Assembly (NCBI GenBank): GCA_017984755.1
Contig: JAGNYW010000001.1
Coordinates: 93,094 to 157,093 of the forward strand
Direction: 5' to 3'
Length of the DNA stretch: 64,000 nt
From: Methyloversatilis sp.
GTDB lineage: Bacteria; Pseudomonadota; Gammaproteobacteria; Burkholderiales; Rhodocyclaceae
In this document: one piece after another, positions 16,866-53,061 of the stretch
Layout of the letters: each line of letters begins with the position of its first letter
Numbering within the stretch: the first letter of the stretch is position 1
Notes under the pieces: model-generated
What the model was told of the DNA's origin: nothing
The model's database searches: none
What the model saw: only the letters and a program-made list of their open reading frames with translations
Program-made: the position numbers and the translations under genes

Positions 16866-16960
16866 GCTGACCCAGGGCAAACCCAGCGAAAGTTGGGGAC
16901 GCAAAGTTTCCGGTCTACCGGGTGCCTCGCGCCCCACGACAGCGGGACCGCCACGACGCT
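16866..16960 (+). promoter_or_regulatory. Cyclic di-GMP-I (GEMM-I) riboswitch
   Basis: The sequence carries the GEMM-I consensus: GGGCAAACC at 16875-16883, a hairpin of CCCAGC (16882-16887) and GTTGGG (16892-16897) closed by a GAAA tetraloop, then GGACGCAAAG at 16897-16906. The second arm has CGGTC (16911-16915) pairing with GACCG (16946-16950), an inner 6-bp hairpin GGGTGC/GCGCCC (16920-16934) and AGCGGG at 16941-16946, comparable to the tetraloop-receptor arm of the Vibrio Vc2 aptamer. These elements bind c-di-GMP. The start of the DUF1631 gene lies about 80 bases downstream; a GGCCG/CGGCC hairpin just before its ribosome-binding site (about 17012-17030) could serve as expression platform. 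Confidence 0.9.
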
Positions 16961-17041
16961 GACCTGTGCTTCGTGCTCGGCCTCGAATTGATCCCTGTGT
17001 CGGCCTTTTCTGGCCGCTTCGCGCGGCCGCAAAGGTTAAAC

Positions 17042-33350: not shown

Positions 33351-36030
33351 TGCGGCGAGCGCCGGTGCCGGTCGCCGCGGCCTTTTCCAGCAATTCAATC
33401 ATGCGTGCAACCCGTTCCGACAGTTGTTCGCTCGACAGCCGTTCGCGCAACCGCGCCACCAGCAGCGGAAAGGCGAAAGGCGTCATCGACGGCGGTGTCG
33501 TGATGCGGCGCTGCGCGCTGCGCATCATGGCCAGCGTACCGGCGATGCGCCCGGCGGCCAGTTCCTCGTGCAGCGCTTCCTGCCTGGCCTGCCGCAACAG
33601 CAGATTGTCCGGGTCATGACGCGAGAACACGTCGAACAGCAGCTCGCTGCTCACCTGAAGCTGGCGCGCGGACTTCCCTTGTCCCGGATAACCCTGGAAA
33701 GTCAGCCCGGCAACGCGGGCCACTTCGCGGAAACGACGGCGCGCCAGCTGTGCGGCGTTGAGGCAATGTCCGATGTCGGTGTCCAGGCCACCGTCCGACA
33801 GCAGGCCGTGGTCCAACTCGTCAGCCCAATCGACTGCTTCGGCCGACAGCAGTTCGAAGCCGTAGTCATTGAATGACAGCGAAAAGGTGATCGGCCTCGT
33901 CCGTGCGATGCGCCATGCCAATAGCGCGGCGAGGCCGGCATGCACCGGCCGGCCGGCGAATGGAAAGAAGAAGGCGTGGTGGCCTTCGCGCGACTGCAAC
34001 ACCTCGATCAGCAGCTCGCCCTCGCCGGGCAGCGCGGACCAGTCGCGCTGCAGGTCGAGCAGGGGGCGCAGTGCCTGCATTTCAGGTTCCGGGTAATCGC
34101 CGCGCGCCGCCAGTGCGACCAGTGCACGGATTTCCTGCGCCAGTTCGCTCGACAGCGGCATGCGCCCGCCGGCCCAGCGTGGCACCGTACCGCGTGACGC
34201 ATCGCCGGCCCGCACCAGTGCCTGCATGTCGCGTATCGCGACCAGTTCCAGAACGCGACCGGCGAACAGGAAACAATCGCCGGGCTTGAGCCGGCCGATG
34301 AAGGACTCCTCCACCTGACCCAGCCGGCCTCCGGCCAGCGCTGCGCCGCCTGCGCTGCCCGCAGCCCCGCTGTTCCGTCCCCCCTTCGCCCAGCGTACGT
34401 CCACCGCGGAATCAGCGGTGATCGTGCCGATCTGCATGCGGTGCCGCCGCGCGATGTCGGCACGTGGCACCCGGTGAAGGCCGTCCGCGCCGCGTTCGAT
34501 CTTGCGGTAATCCGGATAGGCCGCCAGCGATGCGCCGCCGCGGGACACGAAGTCCATTGCCCAGCGCCAGGTGGCCTCATCGAGACAGCGGTAGGCGTGC
34601 GTGCTGCGTACTTCCGTCTTGAGCGCGTCCTCGTCGAAACCTCCGGCCAGCGCCAGCGTCACCATGTGCTGCACGAGCACGTCCAGCGGTGCTGCCGGCC
34701 CGTATCGGGGCTCGATGCGTCCGGCGGCGACCGCGCGCCGCGCGGCGGCCGAGTCGATCAGTTCGAGTCCGTGGCCGGGTACGCAGGTAGCGTGCGGCGT
34801 GCGGCCCGGCGCGTGACCCGAGCGGCCGGCACGCTGCATGAGCCGCGCCACGCCTTTCGGCGAACCGAGCTGCAGAACCCGGTCCACCGGCAGGAAGTCG
34901 ACGCCCAGATCCAGGCTGGATGTGCATACCACCGCGCGCAAGGTGCCGTTCTTCAGCCCGGCCTCGACCCATTCGCGCACCTCGCGCGACAGCGAGCCGT
35001 GATGCAGCGCGATCAGACCCGCCCAGTCGGGCCGCGCCGCGAGCAGCGTCTGATACCAGAGCTCTGCCTGCGAGCGGGTGTTGGTGAACATCAGTGTCGA
35101 GCGGCTTGCATCGAGCTCGGCCAGCACTTCATCGACCAGTTTCACGCCGAGGTGACCGGCCCACGGAAAGCGTTCGGTACGCGCCGGAATGAGGCTGTCG
35201 AGCTTTACCTGACGGACCATCTCTCCCGCCACGCGGCGGGCATGCGCACCGCACAGCACCTCCATCGCATGATCCGGGTTGCCGAGCGTGGCAGACAGGC
35301 CCCACACCGGTAGCGCGGGCTGCCATTGCCGTAGCCGCGCAAGTGCCAGCTGCACCTGTACGCCGCGCTTGTTGCCGATCAGCTCATGCCATTCATCGAC
35401 CACCACGGCGGTCAGTGCACCGAGCTGTTCGCGGGCCGACTCGTGGGACAGCATCAGACACAGGCTTTCCGGCGTGGTGACCAGCGCCTGGGGAAGGGCT
35501 CGTGCCTGGTGCGCGCGCTCGGACGAACCGGTGTCACCGGTTCGCAGGCCGATATCCCAGTCCAGTCCGAGCGTGCTCGCAGATTCGCGCAGGGTGAGTG
35601 CGGTGTCGGCCGCGAGGGCGCGCATCGGGGTGATCCACAGTACCCGCAGACCGCTGACGGGCGATTCGCCTGCGGCGCGCCGCAGTGCGCCTAGCCATAC
35701 AGCCAGCGTCTTGCCCGAACCGGTGCCGGCATGCAGCAGGCCGCTGTGCCCGTCCTTCAGATGCATCCACACTGCGCGCTGAAAGTCGAACACCTTCCAG
35801 CCGCGTTGCTCGAACAGCGCGTCGATGCGTCGTGAAAGCGATGCCGGGTCGGGCAGCTCGCCACCGGCGCGGCGACTGCGTCGGGCCGGTCGGGCCGGCG
35901 CGGGTTCGCCGGCTGCAATCCGCTGTTTCGCACGAGCGGCACGCAGCTGGCGGCCCAGCGAGGACGACACCACGATGCGCCGGATATCTTCGCGTGCGGG
36001 TTCGTCGGGAGGAAGGTCGGAGTCGGACAT
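33340..36030 (-). CDS. Ligase-associated Lhr-type DEXH helicase
   Basis: An 896-residue superfamily 2 helicase of the Lhr group linked to DNA damage response. After a basic, Ala-rich N-terminal extension of about 60 residues it has Walker A AGTGSGKT (101-108), the DEWH box in TAVVVDEWHELIGNK, VWGLSATLGN (motif III), LMFTNTRSQAELWYQ (motif IV) and VCTSSLDLGVDFLPVDRVLQ with QRAGRSGHAPG (V and VI), then the Lhr winged-helix and core domains. The frame opens with TTG at 36033, but the ATG at 36030 is the better start. Its usual partner PdeM lies downstream; tag lies 81 bases upstream. Confidence 0.9.
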   Translation of the reverse strand: MSDSDLPPDEPAREDIRRIVVSSSLGRQLRAARAKQRIAAGEPAPARPARRSRRAGGELPDPASLSRRIDALFEQRGWKVFDFQRAVWMHLKDGHSGLLHAGTGSGKTLAVWLGALRRAAGESPVSGLRVLWITPMRALAADTALTLRESASTLGLDWDIGLRTGDTGSSERAHQARALPQALVTTPESLCLMLSHESAREQLGALTAVVVDEWHELIGNKRGVQVQLALARLRQWQPALPVWGLSATLGNPDHAMEVLCGAHARRVAGEMVRQVKLDSLIPARTERFPWAGHLGVKLVDEVLAELDASRSTLMFTNTRSQAELWYQTLLAARPDWAGLIALHHGSLSREVREWVEAGLKNGTLRAVVCTSSLDLGVDFLPVDRVLQLGSPKGVARLMQRAGRSGHAPGRTPHATCVPGHGLELIDSAAARRAVAAGRIEPRYGPAAPLDVLVQHMVTLALAGGFDEDALKTEVRSTHAYRCLDEATWRWAMDFVSRGGASLAAYPDYRKIERGADGLHRVPRADIARRHRMQIGTITADSAVDVRWAKGGRNSGAAGSAGGAALAGGRLGQVEESFIGRLKPGDCFLFAGRVLELVAIRDMQALVRAGDASRGTVPRWAGGRMPLSSELAQEIRALVALAARGDYPEPEMQALRPLLDLQRDWSALPGEGELLIEVLQSREGHHAFFFPFAGRPVHAGLAALLAWRIARTRPITFSLSFNDYGFELLSAEAVDWADELDHGLLSDGGLDTDIGHCLNAAQLARRRFREVARVAGLTFQGYPGQGKSARQLQVSSELLFDVFSRHDPDNLLLRQARQEALHEELAAGRIAGTLAMMRSAQRRITTPPSMTPFAFPLLVARLRERLSSEQLSERVARMIELLEKAAATGTGARRIKA

Positions 36031-36111
36031 CAAAGCCGCATGCGCAGTGGGAACACGGCGCTCAGACTATCGTTCGTCGCGGCGGTTCGCCGGCGCGGCG
36101 CGCCCCGGCGA

Positions 36112-36696
36112 TCAGTCCAGTGGCCGGATCAGTTCGCGATGGCGGAAACAGTCGACCAGATGATCGTTGACCACGCCGACCGACTGCATCCACGCGTAGA
36201 CGATGGTGCTGCCGACGAAGCGGAAACCGCGCTCTGCCAGCCGTTTCGACAGCTGGTCCGACATGGGGGTGCTTGACGGGCAGTCCGCTGCATGCCGCCA
36301 GTGATTGATGAGCGGCTGCCCATCGACGCTGTCCCACAGCAGCGCAGCGAGGCTTTCGCCACGGTCGTGCAGGTCGATCAGTGCCCGCGCGTTGGCGATG
36401 GCGGCATCGATCTTCAGACGGTTGCGCACGATGCCGGCGTCACCCAGCAGCCGCGTGCGTTCCGCCTCACCGTAGCGCGCGATGCGCGGCGCGTCGAAGG
36501 ATTCGAAGGCTGCACGATAGCCTGCGCGCTTGCGCAGGATGGTGAGCCAGGACAGTCCGGCCTGCGCGCCTTCGAGAATCAGCCGTTCGAACAGCGCCGT
36601 TTCGTCGCGCACCGGCACGCCCCACTCGGTGTCGTGGTAGTCGACGTAGAGCGGGTCGCGGCCACACCAGCTGCAGCGCACGGGCAGCGTGCTCAT
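36112..36696 (-). CDS. tag: DNA-3-methyladenine glycosylase I
   Basis: Base-excision repair glycosylase that removes 3-methyladenine, 194 residues. The N-terminal CSWCGRDPLYVDYHDTEWG carries the first zinc ligands (Cys8, His21) and the catalytic Glu; the C-terminal HLVDCFRH supplies the others of the 'zinc snap'. The helix-hairpin-helix core is around LSWLTILRKRAGYRAAF. The start codon overlaps the stop of the PatZ-like gene (ATGA), so it is co-translated with it, and the Lhr-type helicase follows on the same strand: a local group of DNA repair genes. Confidence 0.95.
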   Translation of the reverse strand: MSTLPVRCSWCGRDPLYVDYHDTEWGVPVRDETALFERLILEGAQAGLSWLTILRKRAGYRAAFESFDAPRIARYGEAERTRLLGDAGIVRNRLKIDAAIANARALIDLHDRGESLAALLWDSVDGQPLINHWRHAADCPSSTPMSDQLSKRLAERGFRFVGSTIVYAWMQSVGVVNDHLVDCFRHRELIRPLD

Positions 36697-39386
36697 TCCG
36701 GGCGCAGTTCCAGCTCACCCAGGCTCAGCGAACTGTCTTCCGGGTCGCGGTTCACGTGAAAGCCGAGGCTCTGGACAAAGCGCAGCATGCGTTCGTTGCT
36801 GGCCAGGAAAACGCCTTCCATCACGCGAAGCCGGCGCTCGCGTGCGGTTTCGATCAGCAGGTTCATCATGATGCGGGCCAGTCCCTGACGCTGCCATTCA
36901 TCGCCGACGACGATCGCGAATTCGCACGATTCGCCGTCCGGATTCACCACATAGCGGCAGACGCCGATCTGTTCTTCCGCATCACCGTCACCGGTCAGGG
37001 CGACCAGCGCCATTTCGCGGTCGTAGTCGATCTGCGTGAGCCGGGCCAGCAGCGGTGTAGGCAACTCCTTGATGGTGCTCATGAAGCGCATGTATCGCGT
37101 TTCGGGCGAAAGCCCGCGTACGAAATCGGCTTCGCGGTCGGCGTCCTCCGGGCGGATCGGCCGGATGATCACGCGAGCGCCGTTGGGCAGCGTGACCACA
37201 TGCTCGAGCCGCGCCGGGTACGGATGGATCGCCATGTGCGAATAGGGGGTTGCGGTGGCCAGCACGTCGCCCAGGATGATGCGGGCGTCCACCGCGACGC
37301 AACCGCTCTCGTCGACCAGCAGCGGGTTGATGTCCATCTCGCGGATCCACGGCAGTTCGCACACCATTTCGGACACGCGGATGAGCACCCGTTCAAGGGC
37401 ATCCATGTCGATCGGCGGCATGCCGCGGAATTCGCCGAGCATGGCCGATACCCGCGTGCGTGCGATGGCATCTCGGGCAAGTTCGATGTTGATCGGCGGC
37501 AGCGTGACCGCGCGGTCGCGCAGCACCTCGATGCGCGTGCCGCCGTGACCGAAGGTGATCACCGGCCCGAATACCTCGTCGTGCAGCACGCCGACGAACA
37601 GTTCGCGGGCGTTGCGTTTCGTCACCATCGGTTCGATCGATACGCCGGTCAGGCGTGCGCTCGGCGCACGCCGGCCCACCTCCGCCATCAGTTCCTGCCA
37701 GCAATCCCTCACCGCCCGCAGATTGTCGACATGCAGGCGAACGCCTCCGACATCGCTCTTGTGCGTGATGTCGGGCGAGTCGATCTTCATCGCCACCGGC
37801 AGCCCCATCTCCTCGGCGTAAACCATCGCTTCGGTCGCGCTGCGCGCCACCACAGTCTGTGCGATCGGAATGCGGAACGCTGCCAGCAGTGCCTTCGATT
37901 CCATTTCCGTCAGCACCGTACGGCGTTCGGACAGGGCCGTTTCGATGACCAGTCGCGCCGATTCCACCGACGGAGGATCCAGATCCTGCGCGAGCGACGC
38001 CGGTGCATGTCGCAGCAGCTGCTGATTGCGGTAGTAGGACGAAATATTGTGGAACAGTTCCACCGCCGGTTCCGGCGAGCGGAAGCTCGGGAGGTGCGCC
38101 GCCTCGAACAGCGCGCGCGCCGCACGTACCTGATCACCGCCCATCCAGCAGGTCATGAGCGGCTTGTGCGCAGTCGCAGCAATTTCTATTACCCTCTGCG
38201 CGACCACCGTCGGTTGCGAAAGGGCCTGCGGTGTCAGCAGTGCAAGCACGCCGTCGACGCCCGGATCGGCAAGAACCGCCTGCAATGCCACGCTGTAACG
38301 CGTGGCATCGGCATCGCCGATCAGGTCAATCGGGTTGCCGTGCGACCAGTTCGGTGGCAGCGCGCGATTGAGTGCATCCATGGTTTCCGGCGACAGCTTG
38401 GCCAGCGAAATGCCGAGATCGGCCGCCCGATCGACGGCCATCACGCCCGGCCCGCCGCCGTTGGTCACCACGGCCAGCCGCTGCCCGGAGGGCTTGAAGC
38501 CGGTAAACAGTGCATTGGCGGCGGAAAACATCTGTCCCATGTTGGCCAGACGCACCACGCCGGCACGGCGCAGCGCTGCGTCGAACACGTCGTCCGAACC
38601 GACCATGGCACCGGTATGCGAGGTCACCGCCTTCGCTCCAGACGTGTGTCGCCCGACCTTGATGGCCAGTACCGGCTTGACGCGGGCGGCGGCGCGAACT
38701 GCGCTCATGAAGCGACGTGCGTCCCGGATGCCTTCGACGTACATGAAGACGCTTTCCGTCTGCGGGTCGGCAATCATGTAGTCGAGGATTTCACCGAAAT
38801 CGAGATCGATCGACGCACCGAGCGACACGACGGTCGAAAACCCCACGCCGTTGCTCTGGGCCCAGTCGAGCAGCGCAGTGCAGATCGCACCGGATTGGGA
38901 AATCAGCCCGATGCTGCCCGCAATGCCCGACGAATGGGCAAAAGTTGCGTTCAGGCCCAGCGACGGTCGCATCAATCCCAGGCAGTTCGGACCGATGATG
39001 CGAACGCCGTTGCGCTTGGCGGTCGCACGGGTGCGTCGCTCGATCTCGGCGCCCGCCGGCCCGGATTCGCCGAAACCCGCGCTGATGATCACGGCCGCCT
39101 TGATGCCGGCGCGACCGCATTCCTCGATCAGGCACGGTACGGTTGAAGCAGGCGTGCAGATGACCGCGAGGTCGGGGCGCTTGCGCAGCGCGTCGATCCG
39201 CGGCACGCAGGGATGGCCCTGAACCGAATCGTGTTTCGGGTTGACGGGGTACAGGTCACCCTTGAAACGTGCTTCGATCATGTTGCGCATCAGCAGCGCG
39301 CCGATCGAATCGCTCCGCTCGCTGGCGCCGATGATGGCCACCGACTGCGGCTCGAACATGGACTTCAGATAGTGCTCGTACTGCAT
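36693..39386 (-). CDS. Acyl-CoA synthetase (ADP-forming type)/GNAT fusion, PatZ-like
   Basis: An 897-residue protein. The N-terminal three-quarters is an ADP-forming acetyl-CoA synthetase-like unit: CoA-binding domain (about 10-140, VAIIGASERSDSIGALLMRN), succinyl-CoA ligase-like domain (RLAVVTNGGGPGVMAVDRA) and an ATP-grasp domain (about 490-700, PVAMKIDSPDITHKSDVGGV). The C-terminal GNAT domain (about 730-880, ADFVRGLSPETRYMRFM, EWQRQGLARIMMNLLIETA) is a lysine acetyltransferase. In E. coli PatZ and its relatives this protein acetylates acetyl-CoA synthetase and other targets. It is followed by tag with a 4-base overlap. An AT-rich promoter element lies about 90 bases upstream. Confidence 0.9.
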   Translation of the reverse strand: MQYEHYLKSMFEPQSVAIIGASERSDSIGALLMRNMIEARFKGDLYPVNPKHDSVQGHPCVPRIDALRKRPDLAVICTPASTVPCLIEECGRAGIKAAVIISAGFGESGPAGAEIERRTRATAKRNGVRIIGPNCLGLMRPSLGLNATFAHSSGIAGSIGLISQSGAICTALLDWAQSNGVGFSTVVSLGASIDLDFGEILDYMIADPQTESVFMYVEGIRDARRFMSAVRAAARVKPVLAIKVGRHTSGAKAVTSHTGAMVGSDDVFDAALRRAGVVRLANMGQMFSAANALFTGFKPSGQRLAVVTNGGGPGVMAVDRAADLGISLAKLSPETMDALNRALPPNWSHGNPIDLIGDADATRYSVALQAVLADPGVDGVLALLTPQALSQPTVVAQRVIEIAATAHKPLMTCWMGGDQVRAARALFEAAHLPSFRSPEPAVELFHNISSYYRNQQLLRHAPASLAQDLDPPSVESARLVIETALSERRTVLTEMESKALLAAFRIPIAQTVVARSATEAMVYAEEMGLPVAMKIDSPDITHKSDVGGVRLHVDNLRAVRDCWQELMAEVGRRAPSARLTGVSIEPMVTKRNARELFVGVLHDEVFGPVITFGHGGTRIEVLRDRAVTLPPINIELARDAIARTRVSAMLGEFRGMPPIDMDALERVLIRVSEMVCELPWIREMDINPLLVDESGCVAVDARIILGDVLATATPYSHMAIHPYPARLEHVVTLPNGARVIIRPIRPEDADREADFVRGLSPETRYMRFMSTIKELPTPLLARLTQIDYDREMALVALTGDGDAEEQIGVCRYVVNPDGESCEFAIVVGDEWQRQGLARIMMNLLIETARERRLRVMEGVFLASNERMLRFVQSLGFHVNRDPEDSSLSLGELELRPE

Positions 39387-44481: not shown

Positions 44482-45555
44482 TCAGAGATCGAAGCGGCGC
44501 ATGAAGCTGCGATCGATGTGGTCCTTCCAGCGCCATACCCAGTCACCCTGGATCACCCAGTTGTCGCGTGACGCAATCGCGTGCCGCCGGCCGCAGGCGA
44601 TCAGCATCAGTGCGCCGGCCTGCGGTTTCCACGGCAGGAGCGGCGTACCGGCAATCGCATGCAGCAGATTCGATGCAAGCGGCGGACCCGCGCGGACGGC
44701 GAACACACCTGATTTCGGCCGCGGCGAGTCGATCATCGTCGCAACGTCGCCGGCGGCGAACACCTCGGGATGCGAGGCGGACTGCAGCGTCGGGAGCGTC
44801 GATATGAAGCCGCGTTCGTCCAGTTGCAGACCACTTTCACGCAGCCATCCGGCGGCTGCAGCACCGGTCGTCCAGACGGTGAAATCGCTGGCGACCGCGC
44901 GCCCGTCCTGCAACAGCAGGCGCTCGGCGTCGATCTGCGCCAGTTGTGCGCCGGTGACCACCTCGATCTGCTGGCGCCCCAGTTCGCGCATCACCACTGT
45001 GGCCAGCCGGTCGGGCAGCCCGGCGAGAATGCGGGGTGAACGGTCGATCAGCGAGCATGACATGCCGGGTCGACGATGGCGCAGCGCCATGACGATCTCG
45101 ACACCCGCGGCACCGGCGCCGACCACGGCGGCTGCCCGCGGGGCGCCGCTGGACTGCCAGTGTTCGAGCAGGGAAGCGATCGGTTTGACCGGGAGCCCAT
45201 GACTTGCCGCGCCGGGCAGGTCGGGCAGCACCGGCGTCGAACCGGTATCGATGGACAGCAGGTCGTAGCCGATCGCGTCGCCGCTGGCCAGCTGGATGCG
45301 CCGGTTCGATGCATCCAGCGACACGGCCGCATCGAATTTCAGCGTGCAGGCTGTGCGTCCGGCGAGCGGCCGCAGATCGATGCAGGCCTGGCGGTGGCGG
45401 TAATGACCGGCGATCACACCGGGCATCATCCCTGAGTAGGGCGTCAGTGCATCGGGTGTGATCAGCAGCACTTCCGCCGTGGGTGGCTGTTTCGCGAACG
45501 CCTCGAGCACGAACAGGTGGGCATGACCGCCACCGAGCAGAACCAGACGCTTCAC
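44482..45555 (-). CDS. FAD/NAD-dependent oxidoreductase, SelD-N-terminal-like
   Basis: A 357-residue two-dinucleotide-binding flavoprotein of the NDH-2/sulfide-quinone-reductase type. FAD motif VLLGGGHAHLFVLEAF at the N-terminus, second Rossmann motif AAVVGAGAAGVEIVMAL in the middle, and FAAGDVATM near the C-terminus. The GGGHAH start is typical of the flavoprotein that in many bacteria is fused in front of selenophosphate synthetase SelD; here it stands alone. The start is GTG 45555, overlapping the stop of the DUF3047 gene (GTGA). Last of eight coupled genes. The substrate is unknown; redox handling of a selenium, sulfur or arsenic compound is inference. Confidence 0.82.
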   Translation of the reverse strand: MKRLVLLGGGHAHLFVLEAFAKQPPTAEVLLITPDALTPYSGMMPGVIAGHYRHRQACIDLRPLAGRTACTLKFDAAVSLDASNRRIQLASGDAIGYDLLSIDTGSTPVLPDLPGAASHGLPVKPIASLLEHWQSSGAPRAAAVVGAGAAGVEIVMALRHRRPGMSCSLIDRSPRILAGLPDRLATVVMRELGRQQIEVVTGAQLAQIDAERLLLQDGRAVASDFTVWTTGAAAAGWLRESGLQLDERGFISTLPTLQSASHPEVFAAGDVATMIDSPRPKSGVFAVRAGPPLASNLLHAIAGTPLLPWKPQAGALMLIACGRRHAIASRDNWVIQGDWVWRWKDHIDRSFMRRFDL

Positions 45556-46307
45556 GGCCGCGCCTGCGCGTCCAGCGACAGGTCGCCGAAATAGCCGAGC
45601 GCGCGGCCGGCCGTGTTGTCGGTGTCGCTGGCGACCACGATGCCTGTGATGGCGGGCGGGTCTTCGCCGAACGCTTCCCGGAAATCGTCCGCGACGTTCC
45701 GGCTCACGGTGCGCCAGCCGCCGGGCGTCGAGCCTGCGCCATCGACGGCAATCATGCGCACCCGATCGGTGTAGGCACTCCATGCCCGCGTGCCGGGTGC
45801 GGCACGGGCATCCCACACGTAGCACAGCACGGCAGTCGGCACCTGCTCGCCGTAGAAGGCACGCGCGAGACGTATCTTCGTGCGCGTGCCGAAGCCCAGC
45901 TTCGACAGGTCGTAATCGAACAGCACATAGATGCGCAGTACGTAGTCGTCGCCGTCGCGCGTGGCGAAGCGCCCGCCTGCGGGCAATTCGTCGGCACGCC
46001 AGCGCCAGTTCAGCCACGGCGTGGCGAGCGGATCGAAGCGACCGGCGTGGCTCAGCGCCGATGCGGCGTTCGATGCCTCGACCCGCAGTACGACGCTGCC
46101 GTCCAGCTCGACCAGCCGGAAATCGGCGGGCGCCGCCTTGCCACCCAGCGTGTAGGGTGCCCAGCCGGTGACCGCGCCGCCGGCAGCCAGCGTCGAAAAG
46201 GCGGGCAGCCTGCCCTGCGCCCACGCATCGCCCGACGAGGCAAGGGTCAGGGCGATGGCAGATGCAATGGCCAGCGCAGGCAGCAGCGCGTGCAGGCGGG
46301 TCAGCAT
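45552..46307 (-). CDS. DUF3047 secreted protein
   Basis: A 251-residue protein with a signal peptide (about 1-30, ending GDAWA) and a beta-rich jelly-roll-like mature part of the DUF3047 family: DFRLVELDGSVVLRVEASNAA, PWLNWRWRADELP, DYVLRIYVLFDYDLSKLGFG, AITGIVVASDTDNTAGRALG. The W-x-W-R strand and the ASDTDNT end are the family hallmarks. Function unknown; the fold suggests carbohydrate or ligand binding outside the cytoplasm. Its ATG overlaps the stop of the upstream glycosyltransferase gene by 7 bases and its stop overlaps the next GTG. Confidence 0.8.
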   Translation of the reverse strand: MLTRLHALLPALAIASAIALTLASSGDAWAQGRLPAFSTLAAGGAVTGWAPYTLGGKAAPADFRLVELDGSVVLRVEASNAASALSHAGRFDPLATPWLNWRWRADELPAGGRFATRDGDDYVLRIYVLFDYDLSKLGFGTRTKIRLARAFYGEQVPTAVLCYVWDARAAPGTRAWSAYTDRVRMIAVDGAGSTPGGWRTVSRNVADDFREAFGEDPPAITGIVVASDTDNTAGRALGYFGDLSLDAQARP

Positions 46308-46933
46308 GGTGTGTCCTCGAGCAGTCCGTCGGCCAGTGCGCGCCGGTAGTCCTGCGGCTGGTCGACGTCGTAGCCGGTGGCGAGTACGTGACAGCGCAGA
46401 CCGAGTGCGGCGATGCGGGAACAGGTCTGCCGCCACACGTCCGGTCCGCCCCATGCGATGTTCTCGAACAGCCCGGGCTGAGGTGCATTCAGACCGACCA
46501 GCAGATAGCCGCCATCTTCCGCCGGTGCGAACACCGCATCGTGATGTGTCAGCGTGTCGGCCGCGGCGATGAGGTCTGCAGCCTGCAGCGACACCGCATC
46601 GGCACCGATCAGTACGACGCGCGCGTGGCGTGCGAGGGCATCGTCGAAGGCCGCTGCCATGCGTGCGCCGATGTCGCAGCCGGATTGTGCATGCAGCGCG
46701 ACGGCAAAGCGTTTGCGACAGTCGGTGAAGAACGGGTGCGTGCAGTCGGGTGCGCACCACAGCTCGACCGGGCCGATACCCGCTTCCAGCGCGCTGCGCA
46801 GCGCGCGCAACGTGAGCCGGGCGCTGGCGTCCGCTGCGCCCGCGTCGCCCAGCAGCGGCGCGAGACGGGTCTTGGCAGCGCCCGGCACCGGAGCACGCGC
46901 GAACACCAGCACTGCCGTCCGGCGTTCATTCAT
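46301..46933 (-). CDS. TIGR04282-type (DUF2064) transferase, rSAM/selenodomain-associated
   Basis: A 210-residue nucleotidyl/glycosyltransferase-fold protein of the DUF2064 family (named transferase 1, rSAM/selenodomain-associated, or arsenosugar biosynthesis glycosyltransferase). Typical parts: VLVFARAPVPGAAKTRLAP at the N-terminus, VLIGADAVSLQAADL in the middle (family G-x-D-x-P/V segment) and FAPAEDGGYLLVGLN. The fold is that of GT-A enzymes such as MobA/CofC. It lies right after the TIGR04283 gene with an 8-base overlap. The exact donor and acceptor are unknown. Confidence 0.85.
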   Translation of the reverse strand: MNERRTAVLVFARAPVPGAAKTRLAPLLGDAGAADASARLTLRALRSALEAGIGPVELWCAPDCTHPFFTDCRKRFAVALHAQSGCDIGARMAAAFDDALARHARVVLIGADAVSLQAADLIAAADTLTHHDAVFAPAEDGGYLLVGLNAPQPGLFENIAWGGPDVWRQTCSRIAALGLRCHVLATGYDVDQPQDYRRALADGLLEDTPC

Positions 46934-47600
46934 GATGCGGACGGTAGGCAAGCGCGAGCACCTGCGGATCGGCGCCGAAAAAATAGCGCAGCCGCAGCCG
47001 CCACATGAGCAGCACGGTGCGCAGCACGCCATGCTTTTCCCAGCGCCGTCCGGAGGTCGTGACGCGTGCCCGCAGGCAGGAAGGCGCGAATCGCGCGCGC
47101 GCGCGCCGGGAGAAATCGATGTCTTCCATCAGTGCGATCGGTGCGTAACCGCCCAGCGCGTCGAACAGCGCACGCGAGCAGAAGATGGCCTGATCGCCGG
47201 TGGCGATGCCGGTCAGCCGCGAGCGCAGGTTCATCATCCGGGCGATCAGGCCGAGCAGCGGATGCTGACCTTCGATGCGCACATCGAAACGGCCCCAGAC
47301 GGCACCTGCGCCGACGGCATCCGTGATGGCGGTCAGTGCGTTGTCCGGCAGGCGGGTGTCGGCATGCAGGAACAGCAGCACGTCGCCGTGTGCCGCGGCT
47401 GCACCTGCATTCATCTGCAGGGCCCGGCCGCGCGGTGCAGCGACGATACGGTCGCAGAGCGGCTGCGCCCGTGCGACCGTGTCGTCGCTGCTGCCGCCGT
47501 CGGCGACGATGACTTCCACTTCCGGCCGGCGAAGGTGCGCCAGCGTCGTCGTGATCGTATCTGCTTCGTTCAGCACGGGCAGGACGACGGATAGTTGCAT
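46926..47600 (-). CDS. TIGR04283-type glycosyltransferase family 2, rSAM/selenodomain-associated
   Basis: A 224-residue GT2 enzyme. GT-A features: SVVLPVLNEADTITTTLAHL at the N-terminus, VIVADGGSSDDTV, the metal-binding segment LLFLHADTRLP and, further on, ATGDQAIFCSRALFDALGGY and LMEDIDFSRRAR with the catalytic-type acidic residues. This is the family named transferase 2, rSAM/selenodomain-associated (arsenosugar biosynthesis glycosyltransferase). Its ATG shares a base with the stop of the upstream FAD fusion gene (TGATG). Together with the DUF2064 partner it marks the operon as ArsS-associated. Confidence 0.88.
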   Translation of the reverse strand: MQLSVVLPVLNEADTITTTLAHLRRPEVEVIVADGGSSDDTVARAQPLCDRIVAAPRGRALQMNAGAAAAHGDVLLFLHADTRLPDNALTAITDAVGAGAVWGRFDVRIEGQHPLLGLIARMMNLRSRLTGIATGDQAIFCSRALFDALGGYAPIALMEDIDFSRRARARFAPSCLRARVTTSGRRWEKHGVLRTVLLMWRLRLRYFFGADPQVLALAYRPHHE

Positions 47601-49750
47601 CAGCTGCGCATCCAGGCGTGATAGCGCGCCACCCACGCGAGCAGGCTGTGCGGCGCATGTGCCTTCTTCCACACGCCCGCTGCGTACTTGTTCGCTTCGT
47701 TCATCGTCGGGTAGATGTGGATGGTGCCGAGCAGCTTGTTCAATCCGAGGCCGTGTTTCATCGCCAGCACGTACTCGGCGATCAGCTCACCCGCATGTTC
47801 GCCGACAATGGTGACGCCCAGTATCCGGTCGCGGCCCGGCACGGTGAGCACCTTGACGAAGCCGTGTGCCACGCCGTCGGTGATCGCGCGATCGAGATCG
47901 TCGAGTTCGTAGCGGGTCACTTCGTGCGGAATGCCGCGCGCCGCCGCCTCGCTTTCATTCAGTCCGACGCGTGCCACTTCCGGTTCGGTGAAGGTGGCCC
48001 ACGGAATGACCGAGTAATCGACCCGGAAACGACGGAAACGTCCGAACAGCGCATTCACGGCGGCATACCAGGCCTGATGCGCTGCGGTGTGCGTGAACTG
48101 GAACGGTCCGGTCACGTCGCCGCAGGCGTAGATGTTCGGATAGAGCGTTTCCAGATAGTCGTTGGTATCGACCGTGCGGTTGCCGCGCAAGGTGATGCCG
48201 AGTTCTTCCAGGCCGTAACCCTGCACATTGGGCGTGCGACCGACTGCGCACAGCAGCGTGTCGAATTCGATGCGCACCTCGCCTGCCGGGCCCTCGGCAT
48301 AGAGCACCTTTGCGTCCGCTTCGCGCGCAAAGCGCACCGCCTTGTGACCGGTCAGCACCGAAATGCCTTCGGACGCAAACTTCGTCTCGACCAGTGCCGA
48401 TACGTCGGGATCTTCCCGCGCCATCAGACGGGGCGCCATTTCGACCTGAGTCACCTTCGCGCCGAAGCGTGCGAAGGCCTGCGACAGTTCGCAGCCGATC
48501 GGGCCGCCGCCGAGCACCAGCAGCCGGCCGGGCAGGGCGCGCAGCGACCACAGCGTGTCCGACGTAAGCAGCTCCATGTCGTCGATGCCCGGAATCGGCG
48601 GAACGAAAGGGCGGGCGCCGGCTGCGATCACGATGTTGCGCGTGGTCAGCGTACGGGTGCCGCCGTCTGCCGTCTTCACGTCCACGGTCCACGGCGAGGT
48701 GATGCGCGCCCTGGCGTCCAGACAGTCCACACCGAGCCCGCTGTAGCGTTCGACCGAATCATGGGGTTCGATGTCGCGCACCACGCGCGACACCCGCTCC
48801 ATCACATCGGCGAAATCGAATTTCGCACTGGCTTCGCGTACACCGAGCGAGGGTGCGTCGGCGATCTGCGACAGCAGGCGCGCCGAGCGGATCAGAGCCT
48901 TGGACGGCACGCAGCCTGTGTTCAGGCAGTCGCCGCCCATGCGATGCTGCTCTATCAGCGCGACTTTCGCCTTCACGGCAGCGCCGATGTAGGCCGTCAC
49001 CAACCCTGCGCTGCCGCCTCCGATCACGACCATGTTGTAGTCGAAGGAGGCCGGCTTCGGCCAGCGCTTGAACACCGACCGCGCGCGCACGATGTCGATC
49101 AGCTTGCGGGCGATCAGCGGGAATATGCCGAGCAGCACGAAGGCGCCGATCAGCCCCGGCGACAGGATGCCGGACAGGGATTCAACCTGCGCCAGCTGGG
49201 TGCCGGCGTTTACGAACACGACGGTGCCGGCCAGCATTCCGAGCTGGCTCACCCAATAGAACGTACGTGCCGGCAGCGCCGTGAGGGCCATGGCGAGATT
49301 CACGACGAAGAACGGGAAGGCCGGAACCAGTCGCAGTGTGAAAAGGTAAAGCGCGCCATCCTTTTCGACGCCGCGATTGATCGACTCCAGCGATGCACCG
49401 AAGCGCGCCTGCACCCAGTCGCGCAGCAGCAGGCGCGCGATCAGGAAGGCGAGCAGCGCCCCCAGACTTGAAGCGAACGAAACAATGACCAGCGCCTTCA
49501 CGAAACCGAACAGCGCACCGCCGGCCAGCGTCATCACCACCGCTCCGGGCAGTGACAGTGCCGTAACGACCACGTAGATCGAAAAATAGATCGCAGCCGA
49601 CGCCCACGGCGCCGCATCGACCTGTTCGGTCAGCGCCTGCTGCTGTGTCTTGAACCACCCCAGATCGAAGAATCGACCGAGATCGAATGCAAAAAAGGCG
49701 GCGATCAGCACTCCGATAACGATCAGCAGCGACAGCTTGCGTGCATTCAT
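47600..49750 (-). CDS. TVP38/TMEM64 - FAD disulfide reductase fusion
   Basis: A 716-residue fusion. Residues 1-225 are a TVP38/TMEM64 (SNARE-associated/DedA-like) membrane domain with about six helices (SLPGAVVMTLAGGALFGF, LRLVPAFPFFVVNLAMALT). From about 235 it is a class I pyridine nucleotide-disulfide oxidoreductase: FAD motif VVIGGGSAGL, redox-active Cys275/Cys280 in GGDCLNTGCVPSKAL, a second Rossmann motif LLVLGGGPIGCE, YACGDVTG and the C-terminal His-Glu pair (HIYPTMNEANK). It is often labelled mercuric reductase, but it has neither the N-terminal metal-binding domain nor the C-terminal Cys pair that bind mercury. A membrane-coupled reduction of another compound is more likely. Confidence 0.9.
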   Translation of the reverse strand: MNARKLSLLIVIGVLIAAFFAFDLGRFFDLGWFKTQQQALTEQVDAAPWASAAIYFSIYVVVTALSLPGAVVMTLAGGALFGFVKALVIVSFASSLGALLAFLIARLLLRDWVQARFGASLESINRGVEKDGALYLFTLRLVPAFPFFVVNLAMALTALPARTFYWVSQLGMLAGTVVFVNAGTQLAQVESLSGILSPGLIGAFVLLGIFPLIARKLIDIVRARSVFKRWPKPASFDYNMVVIGGGSAGLVTAYIGAAVKAKVALIEQHRMGGDCLNTGCVPSKALIRSARLLSQIADAPSLGVREASAKFDFADVMERVSRVVRDIEPHDSVERYSGLGVDCLDARARITSPWTVDVKTADGGTRTLTTRNIVIAAGARPFVPPIPGIDDMELLTSDTLWSLRALPGRLLVLGGGPIGCELSQAFARFGAKVTQVEMAPRLMAREDPDVSALVETKFASEGISVLTGHKAVRFAREADAKVLYAEGPAGEVRIEFDTLLCAVGRTPNVQGYGLEELGITLRGNRTVDTNDYLETLYPNIYACGDVTGPFQFTHTAAHQAWYAAVNALFGRFRRFRVDYSVIPWATFTEPEVARVGLNESEAAARGIPHEVTRYELDDLDRAITDGVAHGFVKVLTVPGRDRILGVTIVGEHAGELIAEYVLAMKHGLGLNKLLGTIHIYPTMNEANKYAAGVWKKAHAPHSLLAWVARYHAWMRS

Positions 49751-50697
49751 GTCTGTGCCTCGGCAATCGTCCAGGCCGGGCCGGCAAGGATGCGGTCACG
49801 GTAGTTGAGCGCAGCGGGTGAGCCATCCGGCCACTGCGCGTTGAATTCGGCGAGCCAGGCGCCGACGTCGTAACGCAGTGCGAGCGCATCGACATGCAGG
49901 GCGCCGATGCGAGTGCCGTACAGCACCGGATGCGGCGACGGCGTGAGCGCGATGCGGCTCACGACGCCGAAAAGATGTTCTCGAAAGTTGGGCATGCCGG
50001 CAGTACCGTTGTTGATGACTGCACGCTGCTCGAAGCGGGCCAGCGCAGGGAGGCAGGTATGACTGCTTGCAAGGATGTCGCAGCGCGCCTTGTCGAAGAC
50101 GCCGACATGATGCGCGTGACGGCCTGGATCGCGCAGTGCGCGGGCGTCGAAATCCCAGCCCGCAAGCGATTCGGCGTCGCCATGCACGACGCCCACGCGC
50201 GCATCACCGATTCTCACGCCACGCCAGAAATCGAGTGCAGCCAGTTCGCCGCGCCAGTGCGGGTCATGCCGCGCCGTACGCGACAGTTCGGTGTGAATGC
50301 GGTTCGAGCGGTCGACCACGGCATGCGGTACGTCGTCCGGGTAGGCGCAGCCGCAACCGGCGTCACCCGAGCCGTCGGCCAGTTCGGCCTCGACATTGCC
50401 GGCGATGGCCCGATGCGCCAGTACCCTCCGCTGCACGTCGGCGAAATTGTGCGGATCGACGTCGAACCAGTGGAAGTCGCCGTTGAACAACAGCTGTGCG
50501 TTGCCGCGCTCGGCATCGACCATGCGCCCCAGCGCATCGAGTGCAGGACGATTGCCGTAAAGCCCGCCGGCCACATAAAGAGTGTCGGCGTGCAGGTCGT
50601 GTTCGGTGCGCTGCAGCGCTGCAGCGCCGTAGCGGTAGTGCAGCGGGCAACTGCGGCCGGGTTCGGCAAGGCTGTCTTCGTACGGTTCGGTGCTCAT
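49747..50697 (-). CDS. Metallophosphoesterase of the ArsS-type operon
   Basis: A 316-residue calcineurin-like phosphoesterase. Motifs seen: VAGGLYGNRPALDALG (family D-x-H replaced by a G-L-Y-G-N variant), LLFNGDFHWFD (GDxxW), IAGNVEAELA (GN-V-E in place of GNHE), GVVHGDAESLAG and ILASSHTCLPAL (S-S-H-T-C in place of GHTH). Several metal ligands thus deviate from the classical set, as in a distinct subfamily. The ATG overlaps the symporter stop by 4 bases and its own stop overlaps the next ATG (ATGA). It may remove a phosphate from a sugar intermediate of the operon, by inference. Confidence 0.72.
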   Translation of the reverse strand: MSTEPYEDSLAEPGRSCPLHYRYGAAALQRTEHDLHADTLYVAGGLYGNRPALDALGRMVDAERGNAQLLFNGDFHWFDVDPHNFADVQRRVLAHRAIAGNVEAELADGSGDAGCGCAYPDDVPHAVVDRSNRIHTELSRTARHDPHWRGELAALDFWRGVRIGDARVGVVHGDAESLAGWDFDARALRDPGRHAHHVGVFDKARCDILASSHTCLPALARFEQRAVINNGTAGMPNFREHLFGVVSRIALTPSPHPVLYGTRIGALHVDALALRYDVGAWLAEFNAQWPDGSPAALNYRDRILAGPAWTIAEAQT

Positions 50698-52088
50698 CGA
50701 ACTCGGACCGCAATCAGTGGCGGCAGCAGATAGCCTGCGGTGCACAGCAGCAGCCCGTAAAGATTGACGCCGAGCAGCCTGGCATATTTGCCGTCGCCGA
50801 TGGCCCAGCTGTCGGGTATCTGGCCGATGGCAAGCAGCACGCCGAGCACGAGGCCGGTCCAGAAGGCCAGATGGAAGGACCACGCCGCAGCGCGCGTGCC
50901 GGGCCGCGTGAAGCCCGCCAGCAGGAAGACCGGCGCCAGTCCGATAACCATCGTTCCGCTGATGGTGGTCGCCTTCAGGATGTCGGTGCCGGCGATCATC
51001 GGAAGATTGCCGATCAATGCAAATACTGCCATGGTGGCCATGCCGAGCGCGATGGCACGCTTCGGTTCGGGGCGCCCTGCCAGTTGCGGCAGTTCCTGTG
51101 CCACGTGACGGGCCAGCGATGAAAAGGTGGAGTCCAGTGTCGAGCCCGCAGCAGCCACCATGACGATGGTCATCGCGAACAGGGCTGCAGGTCCCATGCT
51201 GCGTGCCAGCGCAGCCGGTACGTTGTCGCCGCCGGCGAGACCCTCCAGCCGCGCATGCACGCCGACCAGTGAAAAAAGCAGGATGCAGATGAAGCCGAGC
51301 ACACCGGCCCAGATGAACGCGCGCAGCATGCACCGCTCGTCCGTAATGAAGCCGCGATCGGTCAGCACCGGATCGTGAAATGGGTAGGACAGGATCTGCA
51401 GCGCCGCGACCAGCAAAAGGTCGACGCCTGCATCGAGCCGGAAATCGCCGGTGCTCATCAGCTTCACCGGGCCATGTTCGGGCAGCACGAGCAGCAGCAC
51501 GACGGCGAAGAACAGCACGAACAGGCCGGTCTGCAGCACGTCGGTGTAGATCGACGATCGCAGTCCGCCCTTCAGGCTGTAGAACAATGTGGCCGCGGTG
51601 AACAGCATGGCCGCGCCGATGAATTCCGCAGAGCCGGCCGGGCCGTAGTAGCCCCCCACGACTGCAGTATTGCTCCACACCTCGTTGAACAGCCGCACCA
51701 GGATGGCGATCGAAAAGGCCAGTGCTGCAAGCCTGCCGTGCCGGCTGGTCAGGAAGGTCATCAGACTGGTAGCACCGCAGCGCCGCCGCAGTCGCAGGAT
51801 GGCCCAGCCGGCAAGCGGAATCGATAGCCAGTAGGTGGCATAGGCCAGTCCTCCGACGACGCCGTAGGTGGCGCCGAGGTTGGCGGCATTGGTGATCGAC
51901 TTGGCGAATATCCAGGAGATGAAGATGCTTGCACCGAGCGCCCAGGTGCCTGCCGGGCGACCAGTCTCGTCGTGTCCCTGGAAGAATCCGGCATGGCCCA
52001 CCGCGCGTGGCGACAGCGCGTACATGCCGACACCGTAAAGAATCAGGAAGCCCCAGAAGGCAAGGCCGAACACCACGGGATTGTTCAT
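50694..52088 (-). CDS. Sodium:solute symporter family transporter
   Basis: A 464-residue SSS-family membrane protein with about 12-13 helices. Family features: LGASIFISWIFAKSITNAAN in the first helix pair, VGGLAYATYWLSIPLAGWAIL, LFYSLKGGLRSSIYTDVLQT (the classical SSS signature-like GG-x-R-x-x-x-x-T-D) and MVAAAGSTLDSTFSSLARHV for the sodium site. It starts 10 bases after the arsS stop and overlaps the phosphoesterase gene. The substrate is unknown; the position suggests import of a precursor for, or movement of a product of, the operon. Confidence 0.88.
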   Translation of the reverse strand: MNNPVVFGLAFWGFLILYGVGMYALSPRAVGHAGFFQGHDETGRPAGTWALGASIFISWIFAKSITNAANLGATYGVVGGLAYATYWLSIPLAGWAILRLRRRCGATSLMTFLTSRHGRLAALAFSIAILVRLFNEVWSNTAVVGGYYGPAGSAEFIGAAMLFTAATLFYSLKGGLRSSIYTDVLQTGLFVLFFAVVLLLVLPEHGPVKLMSTGDFRLDAGVDLLLVAALQILSYPFHDPVLTDRGFITDERCMLRAFIWAGVLGFICILLFSLVGVHARLEGLAGGDNVPAALARSMGPAALFAMTIVMVAAAGSTLDSTFSSLARHVAQELPQLAGRPEPKRAIALGMATMAVFALIGNLPMIAGTDILKATTISGTMVIGLAPVFLLAGFTRPGTRAAAWSFHLAFWTGLVLGVLLAIGQIPDSWAIGDGKYARLLGVNLYGLLLCTAGYLLPPLIAVRVR

Positions 52089-52098
52089 CGCGGCCGCC

Positions 52099-53061
52099 TC
52101 AGTTCAGCGCGCCCGCGCAGGACGAGCCCTGACCCGCAGTGCAGCCGTAGCAGTGATCCATCACGACGATGGGGGTGCCGGCAACGTCGCGCCCGATCAG
52201 TTGCGACAGATGAGTGCGCGGTCGGCCGTCGATGCGCAGTGGCAGGCCCAGCATCTGGTTGAAGTCGCAGTCATAGACATTGCCTTCCCAGTCCACGCTG
52301 AGCAGGTTGCGGCACATAACTTGATCGAGGTTCTCGTCGCGGTGTGCGCTGCGCAGCGTCTGCATGTACGGGTCGAATTCTCCCTTCGACACGAGCGTGG
52401 ATCCGAAACGCTGGATCGGCATGTTGGTGATTGTGAACAACTGCGTGAACACGATGCCGAACTCGCGCATCAGGTGGTTGCGATAGGCAGCCTCGAGTTC
52501 TTCCTGCGGCGGCGGCAGCGAAGGACCCTGAGGATTGAATACCAGGGTGAGTTCGAGTGCCGATCCGGGTTGCCCGTAGCCGAGCGCGTTGAGTTGCTGA
52601 AGGGCCGCGATGCTGCGTGCGAAGACGCCGTTGCCGCGCTGGCGGTCTACGTTGTCTTCCAGGTAACAGGGTAGCGACGCGGTGATCTGCACGTCCTGTT
52701 CTGCGAGGAACGCGGCGAGCGTGGCATGACCCGGTTCCGACAGGATGGTCAGATTGCATCGATCCAGCACGCTCACGCCCAGTTTGCGTGCTTCGGTCAC
52801 CAGCCAGCGGAAGTTGGGATTCATCTCCGGTGCGCCACCCGTCAGGTCGATCTGGCGGATGTCCGATGCACGGATGAAATCGAGCACGCAGTGCAGGGTT
52901 TCCAGACTCATCTGTTCGGTGCGTGTAGGCCCCGCATTGACATGGCAGTGCAGGCAACTCTGGTTGCAGGTGTAGCCCAGATTTATCTGCAGTATCCCGG
53001 TTCGACGTCGGTTGATTGGCGGAAAATCGGTGCGGACGAGCAGGGGCAGGGTGGCGTGCAT
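52099..53061 (-). CDS. arsS: Radical SAM/Cys-rich protein ArsS
   Basis: A 320-residue radical SAM enzyme. The [4Fe-4S] motif Cys32-Cys36-Cys39 is in GYTCNQSCLHCHV; LTGGAPEMNPNFRWLV is the family GGE-like SAM motif; the C-terminal Cys-rich region (CRNLLSVDWEGNVYDCDFN and CYGCTAGQGSSCAG, Cys304, 307, 315) is the second cluster-binding part. This is the rSAM/selenodomain family (TIGR04167), whose member ArsS acts in arsenosugar synthesis by adding a deoxyadenosyl/ribosyl group. The position that is selenocysteine in some relatives appears to be Cys or absent here. ATG 53061 gives the family start; it is the first gene of the eight-gene operon. Confidence 0.88.
   Translation of the reverse strand: MHATLPLLVRTDFPPINRRRTGILQINLGYTCNQSCLHCHVNAGPTRTEQMSLETLHCVLDFIRASDIRQIDLTGGAPEMNPNFRWLVTEARKLGVSVLDRCNLTILSEPGHATLAAFLAEQDVQITASLPCYLEDNVDRQRGNGVFARSIAALQQLNALGYGQPGSALELTLVFNPQGPSLPPPQEELEAAYRNHLMREFGIVFTQLFTITNMPIQRFGSTLVSKGEFDPYMQTLRSAHRDENLDQVMCRNLLSVDWEGNVYDCDFNQMLGLPLRIDGRPRTHLSQLIGRDVAGTPIVVMDHCYGCTAGQGSSCAGALN

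Follow-up and report, generated by a model that had tools for sequence, protein, structure and literature searches.

Where does a bacterium that carries the radical S-adenosylmethionine (SAM) enzyme ArsS, but no ArsM methyltransferase, obtain the ArsS substrate? We found no answer in the literature, and the question is posed by a stretch of 64,000 nucleotides from Methyloversatilis sp. (assembly GCA_017984755.1, contig JAGNYW010000001.1, positions 93,094 to 157,093; hereafter the window). It contains a real, conserved eight-gene operon around ArsS, which represents a new variant of the ArsS/arsenosugar-type locus. We propose that the operon serves an ArsS-centred pathway of the arsenosugar type and that its starting arsenical comes from outside the cell rather than from ArsM, a proposal to which we assign roughly an even chance. 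The imported arsenical would probably be a methylated one, for example dimethylarsinate or methylarsonate. Our consideration starts from what can be read directly at this locus and its relatives: the gene order, the operon-like junctions, the protein families, the co-occurrence of SSS symporter and phosphoesterase genes with ArsS, the lack of ArsM at their loci, and the unchanged cysteines of ArsS.

The operon and its relatives

The eight open frames all lie on the minus strand, span 8580 bases and follow each other in this order (FAD, flavin adenine dinucleotide; aa, amino acids; pLDDT, predicted local distance difference test score; AF2, AlphaFold2):

53061-52099, minus: arsS, radical SAM enzyme (TIGR04167), 320 aa; NCBIfam 452.6 bits, cut-off 300; Pfam DUF3641 and Radical_SAM
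52088-50694, minus: SSS-type symporter, 464 aa, candidate substrate importer; PF00474 32.1 bits
50697-49747, minus: metallophosphoesterase-fold protein, 316 aa; AF2 pLDDT 93.5, Foldseek match to SapH, alignment of 30 sequences
49750-47600, minus: VTT (TVP38) membrane domain fused to an FAD disulfide reductase, 716 aa; VTT_dom 76.9 bits, Pyr_redox_2 202.9 bits
47600-46926, minus: GT2 glycosyltransferase TIGR04283, 224 aa; 265.9 bits, cut-off 182
46933-46301, minus: TIGR04282 (DUF2064, CofC-like) transferase, 210 aa; 188.4 bits, cut-off 134
46307-45552, minus: DUF3047 protein, 251 aa, with a hydrophobic N-terminus; PF11249 217 bits
45555-44482, minus: TIGR03169 (Nterm_to_SelD) stand-alone FAD protein, 357 aa, GTG start; 389.4 bits, cut-off 310

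The 10-base gap between arsS and the SSS gene is the sole gap among the seven junctions; the next six overlap by 4, 4, 1, 8, 7 and 4 bases, in gene order from the SSS/phosphoesterase junction. Our reading of the sequence thus agrees with an initial annotation, which had reported eight genes with one 10-base gap and six overlaps of 1-8 bases, and its family names (ArsS, TIGR04283, TIGR04282, DUF3047, TIGR03169, VTT-FAD and SSS) were recovered by NCBIfam and Pfam scans. Its metallophosphoesterase label stands on other ground; this protein has no Pfam or NCBIfam match at E<=1e-5, but its predicted structure shows that fold. Across the operon, counts of promoter-like sites (0, against a mean of 1.1 in shuffles) and terminator-like sites (6, against 4.4) were uninformative, and an Rfam scan of the window gave a single match, outside the operon.

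The initial annotation had proposed a search for the same gene order in relatives, and the identical eight-gene order indeed recurs in two other species of the genus, G011 (locus L125) and G076 (L015/L126), with ArsS identities to the window of 84% (L125) and 80% (L015); in G124, the fourth sampled genome of this genus, no ArsS exceeds the cut-off. More distant relatives retain the order ArsS-SSS-phosphoesterase-VTT-FAD, often with a DUF547 gene (PF04784) before GT2 and with Rieske and sulfurtransferase genes after the transferases. We noted such Rieske oxygenase-like and sulfurtransferase genes downstream of the transferases in L016, L017, L019, L022, L028, L038, L048, L058 and L069. No title or abstract describing the operon, or ArsS together with a transporter, was found in a literature search that covered subscription journals thinly. 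In the accessible parts of three further papers, DUF3047 and DUF3641 appear only in unrelated correlation clusters (PMC3597751), ArsS does not appear (PMC13171826), and a TIGR04282 gene is reported from the margin of an island for iodate reduction in Aromatoleum (PMC8801600), so that such genes may travel with mobile islands.

Transporter and methyltransferase at ArsS loci

For comparison we kept the best 80 of 584 confirmed loci from an ArsS scan and added 31 stretches from the remaining genomes with ArsS in a sample of 121 from the family of the window; these 111 loci, less three duplicates, gave 108, the window itself not being counted. Some loci end at contig ends, so that single-locus absences are uncertain. 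With a transporter defined as either SSS or PhnD plus PhnE within 9 kb of arsS, 30 loci have a transporter (SSS 19, PhnDE 11), 28 have ArsM, none has both and 50 have neither (Fisher p 3.7e-5). The phosphoesterase, found in 34 of the 108 loci, also never overlaps with ArsM (p 3.6e-6); it accompanies a transporter in 26 loci and stands without one in 8, while 4 loci have a transporter alone. The same separation is seen among the 59 loci flanked on each side by 8.5 kb or more (transporter 17, ArsM 14, both 0, neither 28; p 0.006) and among the 45 loci with both transferases (transporter 14, ArsM 10, both 0; p 0.019). As a control, GT2 occurs at 13/28 loci beside ArsM and at 37/80 elsewhere, the two transferases being about equally frequent in both settings.

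Position tells a similar story. When we recorded the nearest sought gene downstream of arsS on the same strand within 450 bases, it was VTT-FAD in 23 loci, ArsM in 22, SSS in 17, the phosphoesterase in 10, PhnD in 6, a HAD-type hydrolase in 6, and DUF2064, GT2, PhnC or the FAD part in 10, with no sought gene in 14. On the ArsS tree, at least eight changes are needed between ArsM and transporter/phosphoesterase, and at least six between SSS and PhnDE. That two non-homologous transporters hold the same place after arsS (17 and 6 loci) and have been swapped at least six times suggests that they share a solute. NCBIfam models were run on 11 of the 28 ArsM loci. Two of these, L048 and L068, score 546 and 538 bits with the arsenosugar-type model (cut-off 400), and two more, L031 and L074, score 364 and 359 bits with the model for the general arsenite methyltransferase (cut-off 263); the remaining seven give ArsM-model matches that are all under the cut-offs. 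On the ArsS tree L048 and L068 fall into a clade of 15 rows (SH-aLRT 100), together with seven SSS, three PhnDE, two phosphoesterase-only loci and one with none of these; both carry ArsM where a transporter and a phosphoesterase would otherwise stand. That the locus exists in interchangeable forms, of a transporter or an ArsM type, is an observation that is new here. The HAD-type loci (L076, L078, L086, L089, L143 and L148), with the hydrolase directly after arsS and neither transporter nor ArsM nearby, are a possible further form of the pathway.

The family sample comprises 32 genomes with ArsS, called over the cut-off, and 89 without. The SSS profile (E<=1e-60) and the phosphoesterase profile were each found in 12 of the 121 genomes, all of them with ArsS (12/32 vs 0/89 in both cases, p 1.9e-8, uncorrected for kinship). 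ArsM-like genes at E<=1e-30 occur in 8/32 genomes with ArsS and 7/89 without (p 0.024), a threshold that may miss arsenosugar-type ArsM, which scores only 119-126 bits with that model. The lack of ArsM, on which the initial annotation had remarked, is the usual state: 24/32 ArsS-bearing family genomes have none at this threshold. For the operon itself, "without ArsM" is true, and none was found in the genome (3.27 Mb, 96 contigs, 93.8% complete), where the best match to NF008823 reaches 51 bits against a cut-off of 263 and an ArsM-like protein as query finds only 21.7 bits; several generic methyltransferases give such weak matches to the ArsM model, 51 bits being the best. An ArsM hidden elsewhere in this genome was considered and rejected, none having been found by model or protein searches, and none was detected at E<=1e-30 in the congeners G011 (99% complete) and G076 (100% complete).

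Is the ArsS of the transporter-type loci still the same enzyme? The Cx3Cx2C radical SAM motif (C32, C36 and C39) and seven more cysteines are common to the ArsS of the window and of 28 ArsM-linked relatives. None of the ten varies among the 28 ArsM-linked rows or among the 39 rows linked to transporter or phosphoesterase, which include the window, and in the 42 rows with neither partner one row deviates at one of them. ArsM-linked ArsS has 102 invariant columns, of which 92 do not vary in the transporter/phosphoesterase-linked group and 100 are conserved there to 90% or more; no column has differing majorities of at least 70% each in the two groups. We rejected a divergence of ArsS to a new substrate, since no column separates the groups, though ten of the 102 columns vary somewhat. 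The same reaction in both types of locus would be the simplest assumption from this alignment. A search by sequence found no solved relative of ArsS.

The SSS protein of the window is a distant member of its family (PF00474 32.1 bits, cut-off 22.8; TIGR00813 48.6 bits, cut-off 184), with DUR3, a choline transporter and SGLT1 as its nearest solved proteins. A clue to the ligand comes from the 11 loci in which the PhnD/PhnE-type importer replaces SSS. The binding protein of this importer scores far higher with HtxB (hypophosphite; 243 bits) than with the other solved members, namely PtxB (110), PhnD (96-100), the Aio protein (71) and ArrX (64). Of the HtxB residues, W52, T129, S130, R178 and D206 are conserved in 11/11, while N128 is replaced by Ser and F158 by His in 11/11, and M176 by Tyr in 7 and Phe in 4. 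The available text of PMC6629693 describes "HtxB-like" proteins with the same three differences, a larger modelled "hybrid" pocket and a third-oxygen contact; the HtxB residues are described also in the part of PMC5700983 that is accessible. Such an enlarged pocket would be a candidate fit for a small oxyanion bearing one or two non-oxygen groups, and by analogy of shape dimethylarsinate, methylarsonate, phosphite and arsenite are candidate ligands.

The phosphoesterase-like protein departs from its fold class in its metal ligands. The AF2 model is matched in Foldseek by SapH-type phosphoesterases (TMt 0.74, E 8.8e-12), and a search by sequence found no solved relative. Metallophosphoesterases usually bind their metals through DxH and GHxH motifs. 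In 30 aligned sequences of this family D74, N101, H172 and H213 are retained as candidate metal ligands, GGLYGN mostly stands at the DxHGN position and SSHTC at the GHTH position (with single-letter departures in a few rows), and C17, C115, C117 and C215 are invariant. One metal site has probably been lost, judging from these replacements, which makes the dephosphorylation step of the initial annotation doubtful.

A proposed pathway and its alternatives

Let us assume that the operon acts on arsenic. Which element is handled, which species is imported, which way transport runs and all the chemical steps are inferred, and these steps might run as follows. The dedicated SSS symporter would take up the arsenical, and the FAD reductases, namely the VTT-FAD fusion, which carries a CLNTGC redox motif, and the TIGR03169 protein, might serve to reduce the compound itself or to maintain a thiol partner in reduced form. 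ArsS would then move the 5'-deoxyadenosyl group of SAM onto trivalent arsenic, after which an MTAP-type nucleoside phosphorylase, whose gene lies elsewhere in the genome, might strip the adenine. An MTAP-family phosphorylase in this genome scores 274.0 bits, just below the cut-off of 274.85, and MTAP genes lie near ArsS in 8/108 loci, where they would suit adenine removal from a 5'-substituted adenosine. The TIGR04282 and TIGR04283 enzymes would provide the activated sugar and assemble the glycoside. The DUF3047 protein, a predicted jelly roll (AF2 pLDDT 87.3) that in Foldseek resembles FAP20-type axonemal, glucuronyl C5-epimerase and CBM4 domains with modest TM-scores, would, if exported, bind or process the glycoside outside the cytoplasm; its putative export is judged from the hydrophobic N-terminus alone. 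The phosphoesterase-fold protein probably carries thiols and a single metal and acts on the imported compound.

Several observations weigh against import of the arsenical. When the exclusion of ArsM was tested on 14 well-supported independent pairs of the phylogeny, it was not significant, with a median p of 0.5 (range 0.0625-1); ArsM moved the opposite way in 1-5 of the pairs and the same way in 0. At the level of family genomes, ArsM-like genes occur in 1/14 ArsS-bearing genomes with SSS or phosphoesterase and in 7/18 without, which is borderline (p 0.053), and G061 is an exception with SSS, phosphoesterase and an ArsM-like gene together. Neither a transporter nor ArsM is found near ArsS in 50/108 loci, many ArsS-bearing genomes have no ArsM-like gene and no SSS, and 8/34 phosphoesterase loci are without a nearby transporter. 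Furthermore, the window has SSS and not the HtxB-like importer, so that the pocket clue reaches it only via the shared place, and the authors of the pocket analysis, in the available text of PMC6629693, expect phosphite as the ligand. We regard the exclusion as suggestive, not proven.

Other explanations have to be considered alongside. The pathway might still be of the arsenosugar type and start from inorganic arsenite, or from arsenic methylated by an unrecognised enzyme, with SSS exporting the product or carrying a polyol or sugar for glycosylation. In its favour are the ArsS-bearing genomes without ArsM, most of them also without SSS, the generic methyltransferases with weak ArsM-model matches, and the sugars, urea or choline that SSS proteins mostly carry. 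Against it, the position of SSS is also held by an HtxB-like oxyanion importer and no ArsM locus contains SSS, a pattern that fits substrate import better. We consider this alternative rather unlikely. Less probable again is a selenium or sulfur pathway, in which ArsS and the transferases would make a seleno- or thio-sugar from selenide or selenophosphate. The claim that the locus is "without SelD" holds for the operon, which has only the TIGR03169 protein, and fails for the genome: selD (425 bits) lies at G000:C20:7965-8891, on the same contig and 85 kb before the window start, within a complete selenoneine cluster egtD-senA-senB-selD at G000:C20:4599-9011 (L156; senA 499 bits, cut-off 420), outside the window. 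A mnmH gene (tRNA 2-selenouridine synthase) lies in the window at 43026-41908 on the minus strand, about 1.5 kb from the operon end, and in G076 (L126) mnmH and selD follow just past the last gene, the SelD-associated FAD protein, beyond a LolD-like ABC gene. Among the ArsS-bearing family genomes SelD is found in 31/32 and SenB in 9/32, next to the 8/32 for ArsM. Yet SelD is also common without ArsS (75/89, p 0.11), SenB does not track ArsS (16/89, p 0.31), G020 (97% complete) has the ArsS-SSS-phosphoesterase operon with no SelD found, and ArsM genes of several kinds adjoin ArsS. With selD housed in a separate selenoneine cluster and SelD not clearly tracking ArsS, we rejected selenium as the first choice of element.

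Two further possibilities we hold to be very improbable. One dispenses with arsenic: the SSS or HtxB-like importer would admit phosphite or hypophosphite and ArsS would form a C-P bond by placing the adenosyl group on phosphorus. If true, phosphorus-bearing sugars would be reached by a new way of making C-P bonds, through an enzyme named for arsenic. It draws on the clear lead of HtxB over PtxB in the binding-protein scores, on the phosphite expected for this pocket type and on the phosphoesterase-fold protein accompanying the importer; against it, no ArsS column separates these loci from the ArsM-linked ones, all ten cysteines are kept, and the phosphoesterase is without the usual ligands of one metal site. 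The other, to which we give just as little credence, is salvage, where the operon would take up and recycle arsenosugars or arsenolipids made by others. A symporter, a phosphoesterase fold and a fold of carbohydrate-binding type would be in keeping with scavenging, but ArsS and both transferases are members of families whose names refer to synthesis, and the loss of metal ligands just mentioned counts here too. We retain import of an arsenical as the working model. The coupled pathway for an As-, Se- or S-containing sugar product suggested by the initial annotation stands in so far as a co-oriented, overlapping, ArsS-associated gene set includes a symporter, and SSS and phosphoesterase are confined to ArsS-bearing genomes in the family sample; selenium is not supported as a favoured element, and the dephosphorylation part is doubtful.

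Elsewhere in the window, a c-di-GMP-I riboswitch (16866-16955, plus strand; 60.9 bits, gathering 35) lies at the start of a DUF1631-domain frame (16922-19393), and two neighbouring 897-aa frames on the minus strand, 33340-36033 and 36693-39386, are unrelated, one being an Lhr-type helicase and the other an acyl-CoA ligase/acetyltransferase fusion.

Significance and comparison with known systems

If the model is right, an importer replaces methylation, and certain bacteria would make use of methylated arsenicals that others release. The data also offer a candidate ligand class for HtxB-like or hybrid binding proteins, and a context for the symporter and for the phosphoesterase-fold family. Irrespective of the details, an ArsS gene should not by itself be read as showing that the cell methylates arsenic.

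The closest known system is ArsM-ArsS arsenosugar biosynthesis (TIGR04167 with NF038099). The window operon shares with it ArsS and the TIGR04282 and TIGR04283 enzymes, which NCBIfam files under arsenosugar biosynthesis, and the relatives L048 and L068 pair such operons with an arsenosugar-type ArsM; it differs in that both operon and genome are without ArsM, with SSS and the phosphoesterase-fold protein in its place. Selenoneine biosynthesis (SenABC) is present in the same genome and on the same contig, but at a separate locus more than 100 kb off with no gene in common. To the HtxBCDE, PtxABC and PhnCDE importers the likeness lies in the 11 relatives that use an HtxB-like binding protein and a PhnE-type permease as transporter; these importers differ in being ArsS-linked and in their N128S, F158H and M176Y/F pocket, and are absent at the window locus. 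Finally, the phosphoesterase-like protein resembles the calcineurin-like phosphoesterases of the SapH/YfcE type in its predicted fold and its four candidate ligands, and departs from them in GxY for DxH, in C215 for the last His of GHxH and in the invariant C17, C115 and C117.

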